Assembly: GCA_020831965.1 (NCBI GenBank) | Contig: JAFIFP010000001.1 | Location: 1-64,000, forward strand | Reading direction: 5' to 3' | DNA: 64,000 nucleotides | Origin: Idiomarina sp. | GTDB lineage: Bacteria; Pseudomonadota; Gammaproteobacteria; Enterobacterales; Alteromonadaceae | In this document: in pieces, positions 52,762 through 62,050 of the stretch | How the letters are laid out: every line of letters begins with the position of its first letter | How positions within the stretch are numbered: the stretch's first letter is position 1 | Notes under the pieces: model-generated | Databases searched by the model: none | What the model saw: only the letters and a program-made list of their open reading frames with translations | What the model was told of the DNA's origin: nothing | Program-made: the position numbers and the translations under genes

Positions 52762-54306
52762 GTGCACGAAAATTGGATGTTATTGATTCTGAGCTTTCCC
52801 TTTGTGGTGATTCTGGTCTGCATGATTGGCTTGCGTTGGAGCGCCCTCAAGGCTGGCTTGGTCGCGTTGGTGGCTACCTTGGCCATTGTGCCGGTGTTTC
52901 TCGATGTGTCCCTGGCTCAAGTGCGTAACGATATTTTGCCACGCTCCATGTTTGAAGCCGCCGTTTCAAGTTTAAGTATTCTCTGGATTATTTTTGGTGC
53001 GCTCTGTATCTACTATGCCCAGTTACACCAAGGTGCAATTGCGCGCATTCAGCAGCAGTTGCAACAGCTTCACCCAAACCCCAAAGTGAGTGCGCTCTTT
53101 GTCGCCTGGTTCTTCTCCATGTTTATGGAAGGCGCCGCAGGTTTTGGTACTTCTGCTGCGCTCACCGCGCCGTTCTTGGTGGCGGCAGGTTATCGACCGG
53201 TGATTGCGGTGGTGTTGGCGCTCTGGGGGCACAGTTTGGGTGTCGCATTCGGAGCAGTCGGCACGCCAGTGATTACCCAGTCTCTGTTAGTGTATGGCGC
53301 CGCAGCGCCCGACATGGAGCTGCTGCTCTCCCAAGCCGTGCTGCCCTATTTGATTCCCACAACCTTCGTACTGGCCATTGGCCTGGCATGGGGATGTACG
53401 CGATTTCATGTGAGTTACGCTGGCCAGTTACATGCAGCACTTTATAAAAGCGCAGCGGGCTTGGGCACCTTGGCGGCACTGTGCTTTTTACTGCCAGCGG
53501 TGGCGGTTGCCTATTTCCTTGGCCCGGAATTACCCACCTTACTTGGCGCTGTGGTGGGAGCAGCCCTATTTTCCCTGCTCTTAAGGTCTCGCCGCGGTGA
53601 AGCAGCTGACTTGCACGTAGTAGCTCAAGACATGTCCTTTGCGCGGGCCACCGCTCCTTATGCAGTATTGATTCTGTTGGTCTTGGTAACCCGACTGGTT
53701 CCCGAAGTGAAAGCTACACTCATGTCGGTGCAGTGGACCTTTGAATGGCGAGGGTATCAAGGCATGATTCCGGTGCTGTACCACCCAGGCACCCTGTTGG
53801 TGGTAAGTTTTGTTGTGGGTGGTCTGCTACAACGACAGTCTGCTCCAGCCTTGCTCAGTGCTTTGGTTCTCGCTGCCAAACGAGTACTCACTGTACTGGC
53901 GCCATTGTTTATCATGCTCTTACTGTCGCGCGTACTGGTTCATGGCGGGGCGATTAATCAGTTAGGACAACAAGTGGCCATAGTAGCGGGTGCCTTCTGG
54001 CCTTTCTGGGCGCCTTGGTTTGGTGTGCTAGGCACCTTTATTACCGGCTCAGCCACGTCGTCCAATATTTTGTTTAGCGAATTCCAACGCTCTGCCGCCG
54101 AAGCCGGCGGACACGAATCCATTGGCTTACTCGGCAGCCAAACCATAGGCGCCGCCATTGGCAACATGGTCTGCCCCCACAACATTATCGCCGCCGGCGC
54201 CACAGTAAACATTCAAGGCAACGAAGGCCAAGTGATGAAGTACACCTTCCCCATGGCCGCCATACTTACCACCATCGCTGGGGTTGTGGCGTTGGGGTGG
54301 GTTTGA
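52762..54306 (+). CDS. L-lactate permease (LctP family)
   Basis: 514 aa with about 12-13 membrane segments. FMEGAAGFGTSAALTAPFLVAAGYRPV, WGHSLGVAFGAVGTPV and ATSSNILFSEFQ are LctP/LldP signatures. Starts at GTG (52762) after AGGGAGAGCTT. It takes up lactate with protons. The surrounding genes do not include an L-lactate dehydrogenase. Confidence 0.93.
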   Translation: MHENWMLLILSFPFVVILVCMIGLRWSALKAGLVALVATLAIVPVFLDVSLAQVRNDILPRSMFEAAVSSLSILWIIFGALCIYYAQLHQGAIARIQQQLQQLHPNPKVSALFVAWFFSMFMEGAAGFGTSAALTAPFLVAAGYRPVIAVVLALWGHSLGVAFGAVGTPVITQSLLVYGAAAPDMELLLSQAVLPYLIPTTFVLAIGLAWGCTRFHVSYAGQLHAALYKSAAGLGTLAALCFLLPAVAVAYFLGPELPTLLGAVVGAALFSLLLRSRRGEAADLHVVAQDMSFARATAPYAVLILLVLVTRLVPEVKATLMSVQWTFEWRGYQGMIPVLYHPGTLLVVSFVVGGLLQRQSAPALLSALVLAAKRVLTVLAPLFIMLLLSRVLVHGGAINQLGQQVAIVAGAFWPFWAPWFGVLGTFITGSATSSNILFSEFQRSAAEAGGHESIGLLGSQTIGAAIGNMVCPHNIIAAGATVNIQGNEGQVMKYTFPMAAILTTIAGVVALGWV

Positions 54307-54335
54307 GTTTGGGGGTGGGTGTAGGTTTAGAAAAG

Positions 54336-56066
54336 CTAGTTCTCCAGCGTCCACGCCGAGGCACCACGTTGGAATATTGCTACCTCTGCTTTTCGTTTCA
54401 TGTAATCGAACAGCGGTTTCTCCCAATAGTTTGGCGCAAACTCGCCTAATGTTCGAGTGACTTCAAACTCAAAGATTTGGGGTTTGATGTGGTGCGCAAA
54501 GCGCCAGTTGTCGATGATTCGGTCTCTGGACTTTAGCAGTGTGAAACTGTTTGGCACGTTGTCGCGCTTCTTATTATTTAATGGCCGATACGCGGGGAGT
54601 AGATTCCAGAGATCGTTGTTGCGCCAGAGGCTATAGGGCAATGCATGATCCACATCCATTTGCTTCATGGTCAGTGCACGCCCACTCCACACACATTCTA
54701 AATGGGGCTTCTGTTGGTATAAGCCGCGCGCGATCTGCTGTTCGCGTTCTATTTCAGGAGTCTGAGCCAGACTTTGCATGACAGTGCCCATAGACACATG
54801 GGGCAGGCTTTTACCAAAGCGTTCGCAAAGCTCCGCCCAGCGAAGAATTAAGGAGTCGCGCACCCAATACCCGGTCAGGCAAAACTCCAGCCATAAGTCG
54901 GACTCTACGGTGACACGCTGCTGGTGTTTGTCGTATGAAAACATTTCTCCGCTGTTGGCATACTTGACTGGTCCATCGACAATGGCTCGTGAGATTTTCT
55001 TGAGTAAAGCGGATAAGTTCTTACTCAACTCTGAAGGTAAGCTGTCGTTTTTCCATGCCAGCATAAATACAGAGAAGAGCTCCGTACTCGCTAAGTTAGA
55101 AATCGCAAAGAAGTGCCCACTCTGCTCAATGAGGTCACGAAGTCCTTGCCGAAACGCGATAGGCTTCCCACCTGTGGCTTCGGAGGTATTCTGTGGAATG
55201 AGTTCCGGAGCAGCGATTAAAGGCCAATAATAAGTAAACCAAAGTTCAGCAAGTCGTAGAATCGGAATGCCAATAGTGCCGTCCGGGTTCCAGGTTACGG
55301 CATGATCATCTTGGTCTGCAACATCGCAAAATGCGCGTAGTAACGCCAGTTTATAGGACGCGGTTTTACGGTCATTCCTCAACACAGACTCAATCCGATC
55401 GAGCGGCTTACCTGCTGCAGATTGCTTCACAAACAACAGCGTACACCAGCTCGTTCCGGCTCGGCCTAAAGAGTCCGTGTCGATGTGCTCCTCAATACAT
55501 TCCAAGGCAAGGCGTTTACACAGAAGCTTTAGTTGGTTGGGAGTAATAGGACTGAAGAGGCGATCATGTGCGTCACGATGCTCTGCTGAAATGTCGGTAC
55601 GCGAAGCCGGAATGGATATTAACAAGCGGCCTTTTTCTACGAGTAAGTCTCTTAAGGTCACCATGGAATCAAACAGCAGGTTGCTTGGCAAATGCATAAG
55701 CACCGCGGAGCAAACAATACCGTCATACTTCACATAGGACGTTAACTCGTTAGGTAAGCTGCCCGCGAATAACCGGTGCTTCAGTTGCGGATGATTTGCA
55801 ATAACCATCTCGCGCATTTTGTCGGCGGGTTCCACACCATAGGCGTCAAAGCCAAGTTTGAGAAGTTCGCGGAGATCCCGGCCACTGCCTGCGCCTACAT
55901 CGAGAATACGACTTCCAGACGTGAAGCTTGTTGGAAAGTAGCGAGCAATACCGCTGCCTTCTAATGCTTCATATCGCGCATAAACTTCTTCCACATGGTT
56001 GTTGTAGTAGGAGAGTGTTTTTGAGTCTGCTGAGTCGTCCATAAATGCATACCGGCCAGAATTCAA
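54336..56066 (-). CDS. SAM-dependent methyltransferase fused to an HNH endonuclease domain
   Basis: 576 aa. Residues 1-215 are a class I methyltransferase: RILDVGAGSGRDL (motif I, 53-65), GFDAYGVEPADKM (acidic loop) and YDGIVCSAVLMHLP (motif IV-like). Residues about 225-440 are helical without a known domain (RKTASYKLALLRAFCDVA). Residues 455-505 form an HNH nuclease core: CVWSGRAL, then VDHALPYSLW (D473-H474), LWNLLP (N488) and NNKKRD (N497-N498, K499-K500). No separate specificity or ATPase gene is adjacent. Methyltransferase plus nuclease in one chain suggests a restriction-like or RNA/DNA-modifying defence protein. The substrate is unknown. Confidence 0.82.
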   Translation of the reverse strand: MNSGRYAFMDDSADSKTLSYYNNHVEEVYARYEALEGSGIARYFPTSFTSGSRILDVGAGSGRDLRELLKLGFDAYGVEPADKMREMVIANHPQLKHRLFAGSLPNELTSYVKYDGIVCSAVLMHLPSNLLFDSMVTLRDLLVEKGRLLISIPASRTDISAEHRDAHDRLFSPITPNQLKLLCKRLALECIEEHIDTDSLGRAGTSWCTLLFVKQSAAGKPLDRIESVLRNDRKTASYKLALLRAFCDVADQDDHAVTWNPDGTIGIPILRLAELWFTYYWPLIAAPELIPQNTSEATGGKPIAFRQGLRDLIEQSGHFFAISNLASTELFSVFMLAWKNDSLPSELSKNLSALLKKISRAIVDGPVKYANSGEMFSYDKHQQRVTVESDLWLEFCLTGYWVRDSLILRWAELCERFGKSLPHVSMGTVMQSLAQTPEIEREQQIARGLYQQKPHLECVWSGRALTMKQMDVDHALPYSLWRNNDLWNLLPAYRPLNNKKRDNVPNSFTLLKSRDRIIDNWRFAHHIKPQIFEFEVTRTLGEFAPNYWEKPLFDYMKRKAEVAIFQRGASAWTLEN

Positions 56067-56243
56067 AGCTTAGCTTGTACGCAATAGATTAATTTCGCAA
56101 TGGCCTTCTCGGACTTTGTGATCGCCGAGCTACTTTTGGCAAGAAATAGTCGTTTCCAGCCAACAGCACTGTTTTGCGGTGATCGCTAAAATGACAGTTA
56201 CAAGCGCCTCTGTTGTCAATTGACAATAGGTGTGGTGAGGATT

Positions 56244-56348
56244 ATGTTTATGTCACGGAAAAGACATCCATCTAAGGATATTGAAGCAGCCATTCGGGTT
56301 GCTGAAGAGCAAGGATGGAGACTTGTTTTGGCGAGTAAGGGCAAGTAA
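56244..56348 (+). pseudogene. Truncated toxin-like gene preceding the DNA-binding partner
   Basis: A 34-aa frame, MFMSRKRHPSKDIEAAIRVA..EQGWRLVLASKGK. The start RKRHPSK.IEAA...AE..GWR is the N-terminus of a recurrent short HicA-like toxin family whose normal partner is the gene immediately downstream. The usual core after GWRV (GGSHAWGR-type, several Cys) is missing, so this is an internal deletion or remnant. The motif is recalled from the family, not searched. Confidence 0.55.
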
Positions 56349-56368
56349 TGGCGAGTGAGGGATTAGCG

Positions 56369-56860
56369 ATGAAAACATTTGAGTTTAGTTTGCGCTTTGA
56401 CGTTGCGTCCTGTGGCCTTGAGCTCCATGAGCTTGATGACAAGTTATTTAGTGCAGGGTGTGACGATGCGTTGATTCGGCACAATCGTCAGGGTGAAGTA
56501 CTTATCGAGTACGAACGAGCGGCCACTACCGCACTTGAAGCGCTTGAGCAGGCGAAACAGGAAGTCATATCGGGCGTGCCAGGCGCTGTTTTTCTAGAGG
56601 CCAAACCCGATTACGTGAGCCCCACAGATATTGCTATGGCTTATCAAATTACTCGGCAACGTGTGCAGAAGATTATTCAAACCAAAGGGATTGGCATTCA
56701 TCCGCTCACGAATGTGGGTAATACGCAGGTTTTTCGGTTAGCTAAAGTGATGGAAGAATTCAGGAAAGTAGGCACACCTATTTGTAATCCTGCTCTTTAT
56801 GAGGCAGCAACCGCAGCACTCAAGCTCAATCGAGATATTGAGCTACGGGATTATTACTAA
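56369..56860 (+). CDS. DNA-binding antitoxin-like protein (partner of the truncated toxin)
   Basis: 163 aa. KTFEFSLRFDV...AGCDDALI...GEVLIEYERAATTALEALEQA is a ferredoxin-like N-terminal domain. SPTDIAMAYQITRQRVQKIIQ (residues 85-110) is a predicted HTH. This architecture matches the antitoxin-like companions of the short HicA-like toxins. GAGGGATTAGCG lies before the ATG at 56369; an in-frame ATG at 56348 is possible. It overlaps no toxin now that the gene upstream is reduced. Confidence 0.65.
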   Translation: MKTFEFSLRFDVASCGLELHELDDKLFSAGCDDALIRHNRQGEVLIEYERAATTALEALEQAKQEVISGVPGAVFLEAKPDYVSPTDIAMAYQITRQRVQKIIQTKGIGIHPLTNVGNTQVFRLAKVMEEFRKVGTPICNPALYEAATAALKLNRDIELRDYY

Positions 56861-56978
56861 GATCGATGTTATCGGAGTTGGCAGTCGCTTTGGTGATAGA
56901 ACAGGTAAGGTGATATAACCGTATTCAGCCCCTAGTGGTCTTTTAATTTTTGGTTGCAAACGTGCAAAGGACATCGCC

Positions 56979-57437
56979 ATGAGACTTATCGGAAATCTGC
57001 TTTGGTTTATTCTAGGAGGCCTTGTGATGGGGCTGGCCTGGTGGTTGGTCGGAATCATCGCATTTTTAACTGTAGTGGGTATTCCATGGGGCCGCGCTTG
57101 TTTTGTTATGGGTAATTTCTCGTTCTTTCCTTTCGGCAAAGAAGCGATTAATCGCAGAGACCTAACGACCCGAAGCGACATTGGAACCAGTGGCTTCGGC
57201 ACCGTCGGCAATGTGGTTTGGTTTATCCTCGCCGGAGTATGGCTCGCCATTGGCCACGTGATTTCAGCGCTCGCCTGCTTTATTACCATCATCGGTATTC
57301 CCTTTGGCATTCAGCATTTGAAACTTGCCGACATTGCCCTATTCCCGATTGGTAAAACAATAGTGTCCAAAGAAGTCGCGAGAGCCGCACGAGAAGCCAA
57401 TGCACACGCTGAGGTAGCAGCCATGCGGCGGCGATGA
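56979..57437 (+). CDS. yccF: YccF-domain inner-membrane protein
   Basis: 152 aa with a twice-repeated YccF motif: LLWFILGGLVMGLAWWLVGIIAFLTVVGIPWGRACF and VVWFILAGVWLAIGHVISALACFITIIGIPFGIQHLKL. Four membrane segments in an internal duplication, as in E. coli YccF (148 aa). Function is not established. Confidence 0.93.
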   Translation: MRLIGNLLWFILGGLVMGLAWWLVGIIAFLTVVGIPWGRACFVMGNFSFFPFGKEAINRRDLTTRSDIGTSGFGTVGNVVWFILAGVWLAIGHVISALACFITIIGIPFGIQHLKLADIALFPIGKTIVSKEVARAAREANAHAEVAAMRRR

Positions 57438-57618: not shown

Positions 57619-58098
57619 ATGGAAATTATTGCTTGGCACGGTGGATGGGGGAAGTTCTCTGCCGTGGATGAAAAGTATCATGGCTCAGGAGAGGGGGACT
57701 CTCAGGGGTGGGGGTTCTACGCAGCAGAAAATAGGGTTGGAGGGGAATACTTTGCCCGTTATATGCACTGTCGAAACGATAAAGTGTATCTGCATAAAAT
57801 CAGATTCGAAATCCAAGAGCATGAATTTTGGAAAAATGCAGATAAGACTGGCAAGAAGCTTTCAACTGGAGAAATTTTTTCTTACTCCAAGTATTTTGAT
57901 CTTCGACAAAAAATAGGGGATGAGATGGCGGCAAAATATTTGAGATCAAATGGTGTAAAAGCATTCATGCTGTGGGAAACGGATAAACCTCCTCATGGGT
58001 ATACATACGTTATTTTGCAACCGGAAATTGTCCAAGTAGTAGAGTCTTATGAATATATTTTTGATGTAAAGCAATCCTATTGGAAAAAAATTGCTTAG
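57619..58098 (+). CDS. Possible ADP-ribosyltransferase-fold protein
   Basis: 159 aa, single-domain and AT-richer than its neighbours. WHGG..KFSAVDEKYHGSGEGDSQGWGFYAAENR resembles the N-terminal half of ADP-ribosyltransferase-like domains of phage polyvalent proteins (form H-G, F..F, GxGEG...GWGxYF). A C-terminal catalytic Glu is not clear (YVILQPEIVQVVES is a candidate). No antitoxin or secretion gene is adjacent. Assignment rests on one motif and is tentative. The 181 bp before it hold no supported gene. Confidence 0.4.
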   Translation: MEIIAWHGGWGKFSAVDEKYHGSGEGDSQGWGFYAAENRVGGEYFARYMHCRNDKVYLHKIRFEIQEHEFWKNADKTGKKLSTGEIFSYSKYFDLRQKIGDEMAAKYLRSNGVKAFMLWETDKPPHGYTYVILQPEIVQVVESYEYIFDVKQSYWKKIA

Positions 58099-60694: not shown

Positions 60695-62050
60695 TTACAA
60701 GATATGCGCTTTGATTGCGTGCTCTGCATAGTAAAGCGGGTATACGAAATGTGTTGTTTCGAGTGGACCAGAGCCCTGAGTGCCAGTGAGTTTGATAGTT
60801 TTCTCAGGACTGCACTTCTGTATGTAGGACTGTAATGACCGAGCACGCGTGCGTGTGCCACTTTTGACCTCAATAGGTATGATTCGACCTTCTTGATCGG
60901 ACGCAATAAATTCTATTTCGGCGCGCGCGTCATTCCAGGAGTATGTGGGGTCGATATTGAGAGCAACCAGCTCTTGTTGCACGAAGTTTTCTGCAACGTA
61001 GCCTTTATATTCGTAACCTTGCTTTTTAATTTCTTTATAACTCACACCCAACATATGATTGAGCAGCCCCACGTCCATAAGAAAGAGCTTGACGCGATTT
61101 TCTCTCTTGTAAGCAGCTAAGGGACTTCGGGGCCGCCCTTCCACTGGATGGTTCTTTAGGATTAATCGACACTTTTCCAGCCAGGAAATACCACTCTCCA
61201 GTTCTTGATAACGGGATTTGCGCTCATGCACATGCTTAAACTTGAAGCGCTTTACCGAGTCGTCTAGCACTGCCGAAAGTTGTGAGGGAACAGCTTTAAA
61301 TACACCTTCAATTAGACTGGCGTCGACTTTGCCTGAGTACTTCCCGAAGTCACGTTGGTAACCTGCAATTAAATCACCGTGAATACGTTGGACGGCCTGA
61401 ACACGTTCGAGAATATTTTGCTCTGCTAGCTGGAACCAAACTTTAACGGCCTCAGGCATTCCCCCAGTGAAGTAGTAGTCGGTGAGCATTTCCATGAGCT
61501 TGAGATGCGCTGCTGGTGAGCTCGCTTGATTCTCGAATGCCTGCAACAATGCGGGTTGATTGGCGGCGGTCAGAAACTCGCGGAATGATAACGGTCGCAA
61601 ATTATATTGCTCTACTTTTCCAACGGGAAAGGTATTGAGCAAGCCAATATTAGAACCACTGGCGGCGACGTACATCCAAGGCGCCTTCTCAGCAAAGTAC
61701 TTCAATGACGTGACCGCTCGTTCGCATTCACCAATTTCGTCGAGAATAAGTAAGTCGGTTTCGGCGTTAAATGTGGCTCCAGAGATAAGCTGGATGTTGT
61801 CAATGAGATCTGACGGGTTGAGTGAACCAGCAAAAGCCTCAATCATTTCGGGAGACTCGAGAAAATCAATGCGTAGCACCTGCCTAAAAGAACTACCCAA
61901 GAGTTCCTGCAGAAGATAGGTCTTTCCGGTTTGACGCGCGCCATCGATAAGTAGCGGTTTTCGTTCCGCTCTGTTTTTCCACTGCTGCAGTTGCGTATGC
62001 AGGGTTCGATGTAGGGGCTGAACCGCTGATTGAAGCGGGTCTTGACGCAT
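60695..62050 (-). CDS. AAA ATPase with DUF4143 C-terminal domain
   Basis: 451 aa. Walker A is LIDGARQTGKTYLLQELL, Walker B LLILDEIGE, with VAASGSNIGLL as the sensor-1-type segment. The C-terminal DUF4143 (YEYKGYVAENFVQQELVAL, WNDARAEIEFIASDQEGRIIPIEVKSGTR) has a PD-(D/E)xK-like E-x-K core (EIEF...IPIEVKSG). These ATPases are common orphan genes of unknown role. Three precisely spaced palindromes lie immediately upstream (62090-62175). Confidence 0.88.
   Translation of the reverse strand: MRQDPLQSAVQPLHRTLHTQLQQWKNRAERKPLLIDGARQTGKTYLLQELLGSSFRQVLRIDFLESPEMIEAFAGSLNPSDLIDNIQLISGATFNAETDLLILDEIGECERAVTSLKYFAEKAPWMYVAASGSNIGLLNTFPVGKVEQYNLRPLSFREFLTAANQPALLQAFENQASSPAAHLKLMEMLTDYYFTGGMPEAVKVWFQLAEQNILERVQAVQRIHGDLIAGYQRDFGKYSGKVDASLIEGVFKAVPSQLSAVLDDSVKRFKFKHVHERKSRYQELESGISWLEKCRLILKNHPVEGRPRSPLAAYKRENRVKLFLMDVGLLNHMLGVSYKEIKKQGYEYKGYVAENFVQQELVALNIDPTYSWNDARAEIEFIASDQEGRIIPIEVKSGTRTRARSLQSYIQKCSPEKTIKLTGTQGSGPLETTHFVYPLYYAEHAIKAHIL

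Follow-up and report, generated by a model that had tools for sequence, protein, structure and literature searches.

In known modular defence systems a constant part senses or signals and a variable part does the harm. PMC10853773 places HKD-helicase and wHTH(SBD)-SAD-HNH enzymes beside Dnd genes, and according to PMC12839542 DUF4007 marks type-4 BREX. Judged from its homologues and their neighbours, the methyltransferase that we describe is a constant module with exchangeable partners, and this is what is new here.

The window, that is the whole 64,000-nucleotide stretch of Idiomarina sp. DNA that was analysed, carries on its minus strand at 54336 to 56042 a gene in which a methyltransferase is fused to an HNH nuclease, 568 amino acids long when read from the ATG at 56042 to the stop at 54336. 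The same frame can be read from an upstream TTG (56066-54336, minus strand, 576 amino acids), and ATG 56042 is the likely start rather than TTG 56066 because relatives in the genus begin near that point; residues are given in ATG numbering unless stated otherwise. A sequence-only reading had proposed a methyltransferase and an HNH nuclease in a single polypeptide and this is borne out by Pfam, in which Methyltransf_23 matches residues 38-191 (1.6e-14) and HNH_4 residues 464-505 (2.6e-7), both above the curated cut-off. In NCBIfam the methyltransferase matches were weak and generic and a Cas9 match was weak as well, with no score close to a cut-off, and PADLOC gave matches to the SAM-binding stretch of mad2 and the HNH stretch of Cas9. 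The class I SAM-dependent methyltransferase module occupies 55410 to 56042 (minus strand, residues 1-211, Methyltransf_23), with the end point of standalone homologues nearby. Within it the SAM-binding motif I, LDVGAGSGRD, lies at 55875 to 55904 (minus strand), and SAVLMH, of the form SAVxMH, at 55692 to 55709 (minus strand), a position that we take to be that of DNA methylase motif IV in class I methyltransferases. A middle region of about 230 residues without recognised fold, with a conserved YKLALL near its start, follows at 54726 to 55409 (minus strand) and leads to a Cas9-type HNH core of the HNH_4 kind at 54525 to 54725 (minus strand) with C450, D465-H466, N480, N489 and K492; the HNH residues picked out earlier, C458, D473-H474, N488 and K499, are correct in TTG numbering.

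A scan of genome contigs with the single window protein as query gave no relative, whereas an alignment as query did find relatives. With the alignment, 84,980 species were scanned at one genome each, and at least 404 stretches, not all of them necessarily fusions, were confirmed as relatives by tblastn. The best 80 of these were taken as loci (2 of the 80 truncated by contig ends), 4 with an internal stop were left out, and 65 of the other 76 were aligned with the window protein. The titles of the best 80 loci name Pseudomonadota groups, Acidobacteria, Cyanobacteria, Nitrospirae, Roseiflexaceae, Rhodothermales and others, including many metagenome bins, which may be misassigned. The 65 further fusions share 23-29% identity with the window protein, and G50, G52, G54, R55 and D56 of motif I as well as C450, D465, N480, N489 and K492 are present in all 66 rows, H466 in 65 of them; the acidic motif II residue of the methyltransferase is E71 in 64 rows and D in the other 2. 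The fusion thus combines the glycine-rich motif I loop and acidic motif II residue of class I SAM methyltransferases with the D-H and N catalytic residues of an HNH_4-type nuclease, placed within the HNH profile match, and both halves look active, as predicted from these residues. Loss of the HNH residues among homologues, which the sequence-only reading had named as a reason for doubt, is not what we see, the residues being kept in 65 or 66 of the 66 fusions.

Taken literally, a methyltransferase and an intact HNH in one chain would be a self-contained restriction-modification enzyme, type IIG-like or based on a novel modification, in which the methyltransferase marks host DNA and HNH cuts DNA that is unmarked, and the occurrence of methyltransferase homologues beside restriction enzymes and phosphorothioation genes speaks for such a role. 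The methyltransferase half, however, does not look like a DNA-base methylase: [DNS]PP[YFW] and PC[QP] occur in none of the 66 rows of the methyltransferase part of the fusions and in none of the 26 rows of a wider methyltransferase alignment. The domain is about 200 amino acids long and the chain has no recognised target-recognition domain. Compared with the PDB at 0.001, the methyltransferase profile gave 92 matches; among the 60 listed of these 92 many are without stated function, those with a name for the most part act on small molecules, CmoM (8joz/4htf), a tRNA methyltransferase, is also present and none is named a DNA methylase. Nor do the membrane-protein partners presented below fit such a role. 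Because the DNA-methylase motif is missing we hold strict restriction-modification, the literal form of the restriction-modification-like effector put forward in the sequence-only reading, to be distinctly unlikely, and the classical form is probably not the case.

A weak profile likeness to CmoM and to the phage tRNA methyltransferase family phrog_4752 (0.0011) would suit an RNA-directed enzyme in which a tRNA-type methyltransferase is coupled to an RNA-cutting HNH, for abortive infection or RNA repair. The HNH half points elsewhere, as Cas9 HNH domains, which cut DNA, rank first among its solved relatives (Cas9 chain 9vj8, 1.8e-7; the best 60 of 64 PDB matches to the HNH-half profile all fall within the HNH part), and several partners of the methyltransferase are DNA restriction-type enzymes, so that an enzyme directed at RNA seems to us very improbable. 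For a nucleic-acid repair enzyme, the other possibility raised at the outset, the analysis brought no positive evidence. For the middle region, searches of Pfam, NCBIfam and PADLOC gave no separate match, and neither did a PDB search with its first 100 columns. A common 'K..LL.A..D' motif prompted comparison of this region with sulphur-binding and winged-helix domains, and neither likeness was supported (hhalign probability 3.6% and 0.7%, no PDB match).

The methyltransferase is found with a fused HNH, with a separate HNH gene, with an HNH_2 restriction enzyme carrying a sulphur-binding domain, with a PLD-helicase-type enzyme or with a small membrane protein, and its stand-alone homologues end near the point where the HNH half starts in the fusion. 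Surveys of 299 genomes of the window's phylum at 1e-25 and of 369 genomes of its class at 1e-40 gave matches in 27 and 17 genomes, 40 of them different. With partner classes and query families chosen, and loci classed, after the loci had been read, the methyltransferase is fused to HNH in 15 of the 40 (1 frameshifted, 1 shortened), has a separate HNH gene in 5, a PLD-helicase-type partner in 3, a sulphur-binding (SBD) HNH_2 partner in 1 and a fused membrane protein in 2; a 'GTEGY' clade of 9 is partnerless and 5 others are without recognised partner. A recognised partner was therefore found for 26 of the 31 survey members outside the GTEGY clade as against 0 of the 9 inside, about 1.5 kb on each side having been seen for some survey genomes, including 3 of these 9. 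In one genome (G307) the HNH partner lies in the same gene run, not adjacent and split over two frames, and in one of those without recognised partner (G421) a possible nuclease gene and a helicase follow.

In HL-AS1, G260, G177, G290, G310 and G602 the separate HNH gene abuts or overlaps the methyltransferase gene or is at most 17 bases from it. The HNHs of G290 and G310 are remote relatives of the window HNH (profile E 3.2e-8 and 3.4e-7), the former giving PtuB-like and weak HNH matches, and the G177 HNH protein has at its end an S24-like domain, as in the PLD-helicase. An HNH_2 enzyme with a sulphur-binding domain is encoded 3 bases on in G133 (L181), and a profile of that domain, whose rows include L024, L025 and L181, matches SBDHga (8h0l) at 1e-32; in two genomes of the window genus (G007, G009) an SBD-HNH_2 gene is convergent to the methyltransferase at distances of 3 and 1 bases, in place of the fusion present in others of the genus. 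In G050 and G466 a PLD-helicase gene overlaps that of the methyltransferase, and in G412 the two are convergent, the C-terminal part alone of this PLD-helicase having been seen; the G050 protein has the domains PLDc_2, ResIII, S24 and DUF3427 and matches PADLOC mREase_IV at 5.8e-114. The HKD-helicase and wHTH(SBD)-SAD-HNH enzymes of PMC10853773 resemble these two enzyme types. Two unrelated nuclease partners, the HNH at L140:1465-3009 and the PLD-helicase at L183:3657-6950, have an S24/LexA-type domain in common, a hint that they may be regulated alike. The membrane partners are one family with 2-3 hydrophobic segments and the pattern W-Q-x-P ... GGLW. In phage phi458, Sphingopyxis, Sphingomonas and two IMG/VR contigs they are encoded by a gene of their own before the methyltransferase; in Rhizobium, G291 and G267 the two form one chain. 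The phi458 pair (L115:2336-3519) adjoins an integrase and has matches in 43 of 5426 E. coli genomes, 29 of them over most of the pair and all at chromosomal places, and several methyltransferase-membrane pairs or fusions lie beside dndB/C/D or in islands of DUF4007 and cysteine desulfurase.

On a methyltransferase tree of 85 domains, which takes in 45 of the 110 fused loci and omits the short row L188, at least 11 changes among the five partner classes are required, or 17 if 'none' is counted as a state. On an independent origin of the fusion in the window clade the evidence points both ways: fusions lie on one side with support 83, yet a topology that joins the window clade to stand-alone HNHs is also acceptable (p-AU 0.39), with long branches meeting. 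In the genus clade two SBD-HNH_2 neighbours stand among the fusions, and G004 has two nearby genes in common with each of G007 and G009, which weakly suggests partner exchange in one neighbourhood.

As the methyltransferase is constant and the partner variable, by the logic of modular defence systems, we lean, with real reserve, towards a module of defence type whose harmful effector, in this protein HNH, would be gated by a methyltransferase that does not act on DNA. The fusion would be a single-chain, mobile, defence-type (conflict) enzyme; its small SAM-dependent methyltransferase would act on a substrate other than a DNA base, or sense SAM or its own substrate, and would gate the effector module, in this case a Cas9-type HNH endonuclease that would cleave nucleic acid, probably DNA, once the methyltransferase module is tripped, for example by infection. 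That the methyltransferase is the controlling half, infection the trigger, the effector toxic and DNA its target is what we infer. The features of sequence that favour the gated effector are intact catalytic residues, a wide and patchy spread, recurrent pairing and repeated partner change, and against it count the lack of clear enrichment of known defence genes around the fusions, most of which stand alone, the ordinary or metabolic settings of the GTEGY clade and some other methyltransferase relatives, the independence of the fusion from phosphorothioation and the unsupported kinship of its middle region with sulphur-binding domains. It is conceivable, if doubtful, that we are looking at modular immunity of a new kind, in which the constant sensor or signal-maker is a small SAM methyltransferase not directed at DNA, unrelated effectors are plugged in by adjacency or fusion, and one and the same module travels in phages and in phosphorothioation islands.

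The exchangeable effectors and the mobility of the family would also suit a single-chain toxin-antitoxin, with HNH as toxin and a methyltransferase domain that neutralises the toxin or modifies its target. The HNH half occurs alone in Deinococcus, Leptolyngbya, Hymenobacter and Nostoc (L007, L008, L117, L118), each time with a small gene just upstream, which could be read as an antitoxin gene; yet these stand-alone HNH proteins have no adjoining methyltransferase, and the small neighbours look mutually unrelated by eye (that of L117 is an HTH_17 protein), so that one antitoxin family upstream of the stand-alone HNHs was dropped as a candidate and a toxin-antitoxin role appears rather unlikely. 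Near the stand-alone HNH half of Leptolyngbya, type III-B CRISPR genes lie about 3 kb away.

The gated-effector reading is in keeping with the distribution of the fusion. With the HNH-half profile, 10 intact fusions, the window's included, and 1 frameshifted were found in the 299 genomes of the window's phylum. In the window genus (17 genomes, its own included) a fusion of the window type is present in 4, the full-length relatives in the 3 other genomes being 62-65% identical, a distant fusion type in 2 (G013, G014) and a methyltransferase without HNH half in 3 (G007, G009, G011), the remaining 8 having no match or only a weak generic one; the distribution in the genus is patchy and accessory. 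IMG/VR holds three relatives, two of them methyltransferase only and one an HNH fragment, a phage collection queried with the Azospirillum protein gave 2 partial methyltransferase matches, and relatives are carried on phage, plasmid and transposon. The effector or defence flavour that had been proposed finds support here, in methyltransferase homologues beside restriction-type nucleases, phosphorothioation or phage genes and in patchiness within the genus. Mobility, patchy presence and the 26 of 31 survey members outside one clade that pair with a nuclease or membrane protein also argue against an everyday accessory enzyme of metabolism or repair that has no part in conflict. For such an enzyme speak the position of the fusions, mostly outside recognised defence islands, and the metabolic settings of the methyltransferase relatives L188 and L189, and we consider it unlikely; among the fusions looked at, no plainly metabolic setting, which the sequence-only reading would have held against an effector, was found. 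L188 and L189 lie in housekeeping-like runs, between kbl- and tdh-like genes and beside rpsB/tsf-like genes (names by eye), and part of the methyltransferase superfamily may be metabolic.

Around the gene in the window, a short stop-ended frame at 56244-56348 (plus strand) stands directly before a 170-amino-acid ORF at 56348-56860, the 164-amino-acid form of which has no match in Pfam; the frame seems to resemble the start of a HicA-type toxin and is perhaps the toxin relic mentioned in the sequence-only reading. In the accessory patch a 159-amino-acid ORF at 57619-58098 (plus strand) has no Pfam match at 0.01, and a gene for an AAA_14/DUF4143 ATPase lies at 60695-62050 (minus strand).

The survey of homologues for defence neighbours, suggested at the outset, gave a divided answer. 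A restriction-type or dnd gene lies within 1.5 kb (307,820 bases) at 17 of the 110 fused loci, which count three genomes twice (G475, G498 and G675) and hence are 107 distinct ones; further out (988,622 bases) there were 2 matches, and 20 control regions held none of the partner genes at 1e-6. Four HNH_2 queries derive from the 17 neighbour-bearing loci themselves, but all 12 HNH_2 neighbours were also found by queries from non-fusion loci (L181, L024 and L118; 5e-7 or better), and so were the four PLD-helicase and one DndB neighbours. Of the 17, seven represent a single Sphingomonadales arrangement, with the gene 15-57 bases upstream, and 2 are near-identical Azospirillum loci. ORFs in GC-rich loci were called by simple rules, and neighbours may have been missed (the first picker dropped 10 of 80 main genes). 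General enrichment, on the other hand, was not clear: PADLOC applied to 3 genes on each side of 20 fusions gave 59 families for 114 proteins, against 30 families for 119 proteins in 20 control regions, a comparison of family counts and not of proteins with a match, mostly 1 protein per family among the first 25 listed. The fusions mostly stand alone, outside recognised defence islands.

Dependence of the fusion on DNA phosphorothioation was considered and is not supported. DndC is absent from the window's own genome, and of 19 other fused genomes none has a match above cut-off, G325 having one below it. Of the whole set of 34 genomes, 3 exceed the cut-off (G602, G291 and G307), with DndC about 4-7 kb from the methyltransferase. 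Because of these counts we conclude that the methyltransferase module occurs in phosphorothioation islands and that the fusion does not need them.

The statement that no described system has this order stands in part. Neither Pfam, NCBIfam (2026) nor PADLOC (2023) has a model for the whole fusion, and among the papers listed by searches for the fusion or the pair none showed the fusion, the methyltransferase-partner pair or partner exchange; the order is, however, not peculiar to this genome, it marks a large family, and this type of methyltransferase also occurs with other partners. For the phi458-type pair novelty is to be qualified, as the figure legends of PMC13092281 (DefensePredictor) show validated E. 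coli systems with methyltransferase or TM parts, which may include such a pair. Taken together with its several partners, the methyltransferase looks like part of an undescribed, modular defence-type system. If this is true, a protein that commonly goes under the generic label 'class I SAM-dependent methyltransferase' is the mark of a large group of exchangeable-effector systems still without a name, and is a handle for finding more of them, and the role of a methyltransferase without DNA-methylase motif beside restriction nucleases and membrane proteins becomes a sharp biochemical question.

Of the known systems, MADS supplies through Mad2 (PDLC04134) the best PADLOC match of the methyltransferase region (2.1e-11), but the window protein aligns at 49-158 only, which is the SAM-binding part. 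At 1e-50 the Mad2 profile matches long stretches of other frames of about 400-940 amino acids in 81 of 299 genomes, probably HsdM-type DNA methylases, and nothing in the window's own genome, and kinship with Mad2/MADS was rejected on these grounds. The Dnd-associated putative methyltransferase TIGR04096 shares an island with the methyltransferase in L177 and both have SAM motif I, yet it is a different protein of which 30 columns align only. Closer to the partners are the SBD-HNH phosphorothioate-dependent enzymes (NF045808; SBDHga, PDB 8h0l), as the methyltransferase partners in L024, L025 and L181 carry a sulphur-binding domain and NF045808 also matches the L181 partner (72 bits, below the cut-off of 180), whereas the window protein has no detectable sulphur-binding domain and its nuclease is HNH_4, not HNH_2. 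Type IIG restriction-modification enzymes, like the window protein, have methyltransferase and nuclease in one chain; unlike them, the window protein lacks a DNA-methylase motif and a recognised target-recognition domain, no profile of which matched the middle region in Pfam, PADLOC, NCBIfam or the PDB. Cas9 and IscB differ in their RuvC and guide-RNA parts, since in the window protein the HNH region alone matches Cas9-type profiles (Pfam, PADLOC, NCBIfam), no Rfam family is found at 54000-57000 and the region upstream of HNH is unrelated to theirs. With the HNH domain of Cas9 and IscB (HNH_4, PF13395) the window protein nevertheless shares D-H, N and K at matching places, in a chain to which a methyltransferase is fused.
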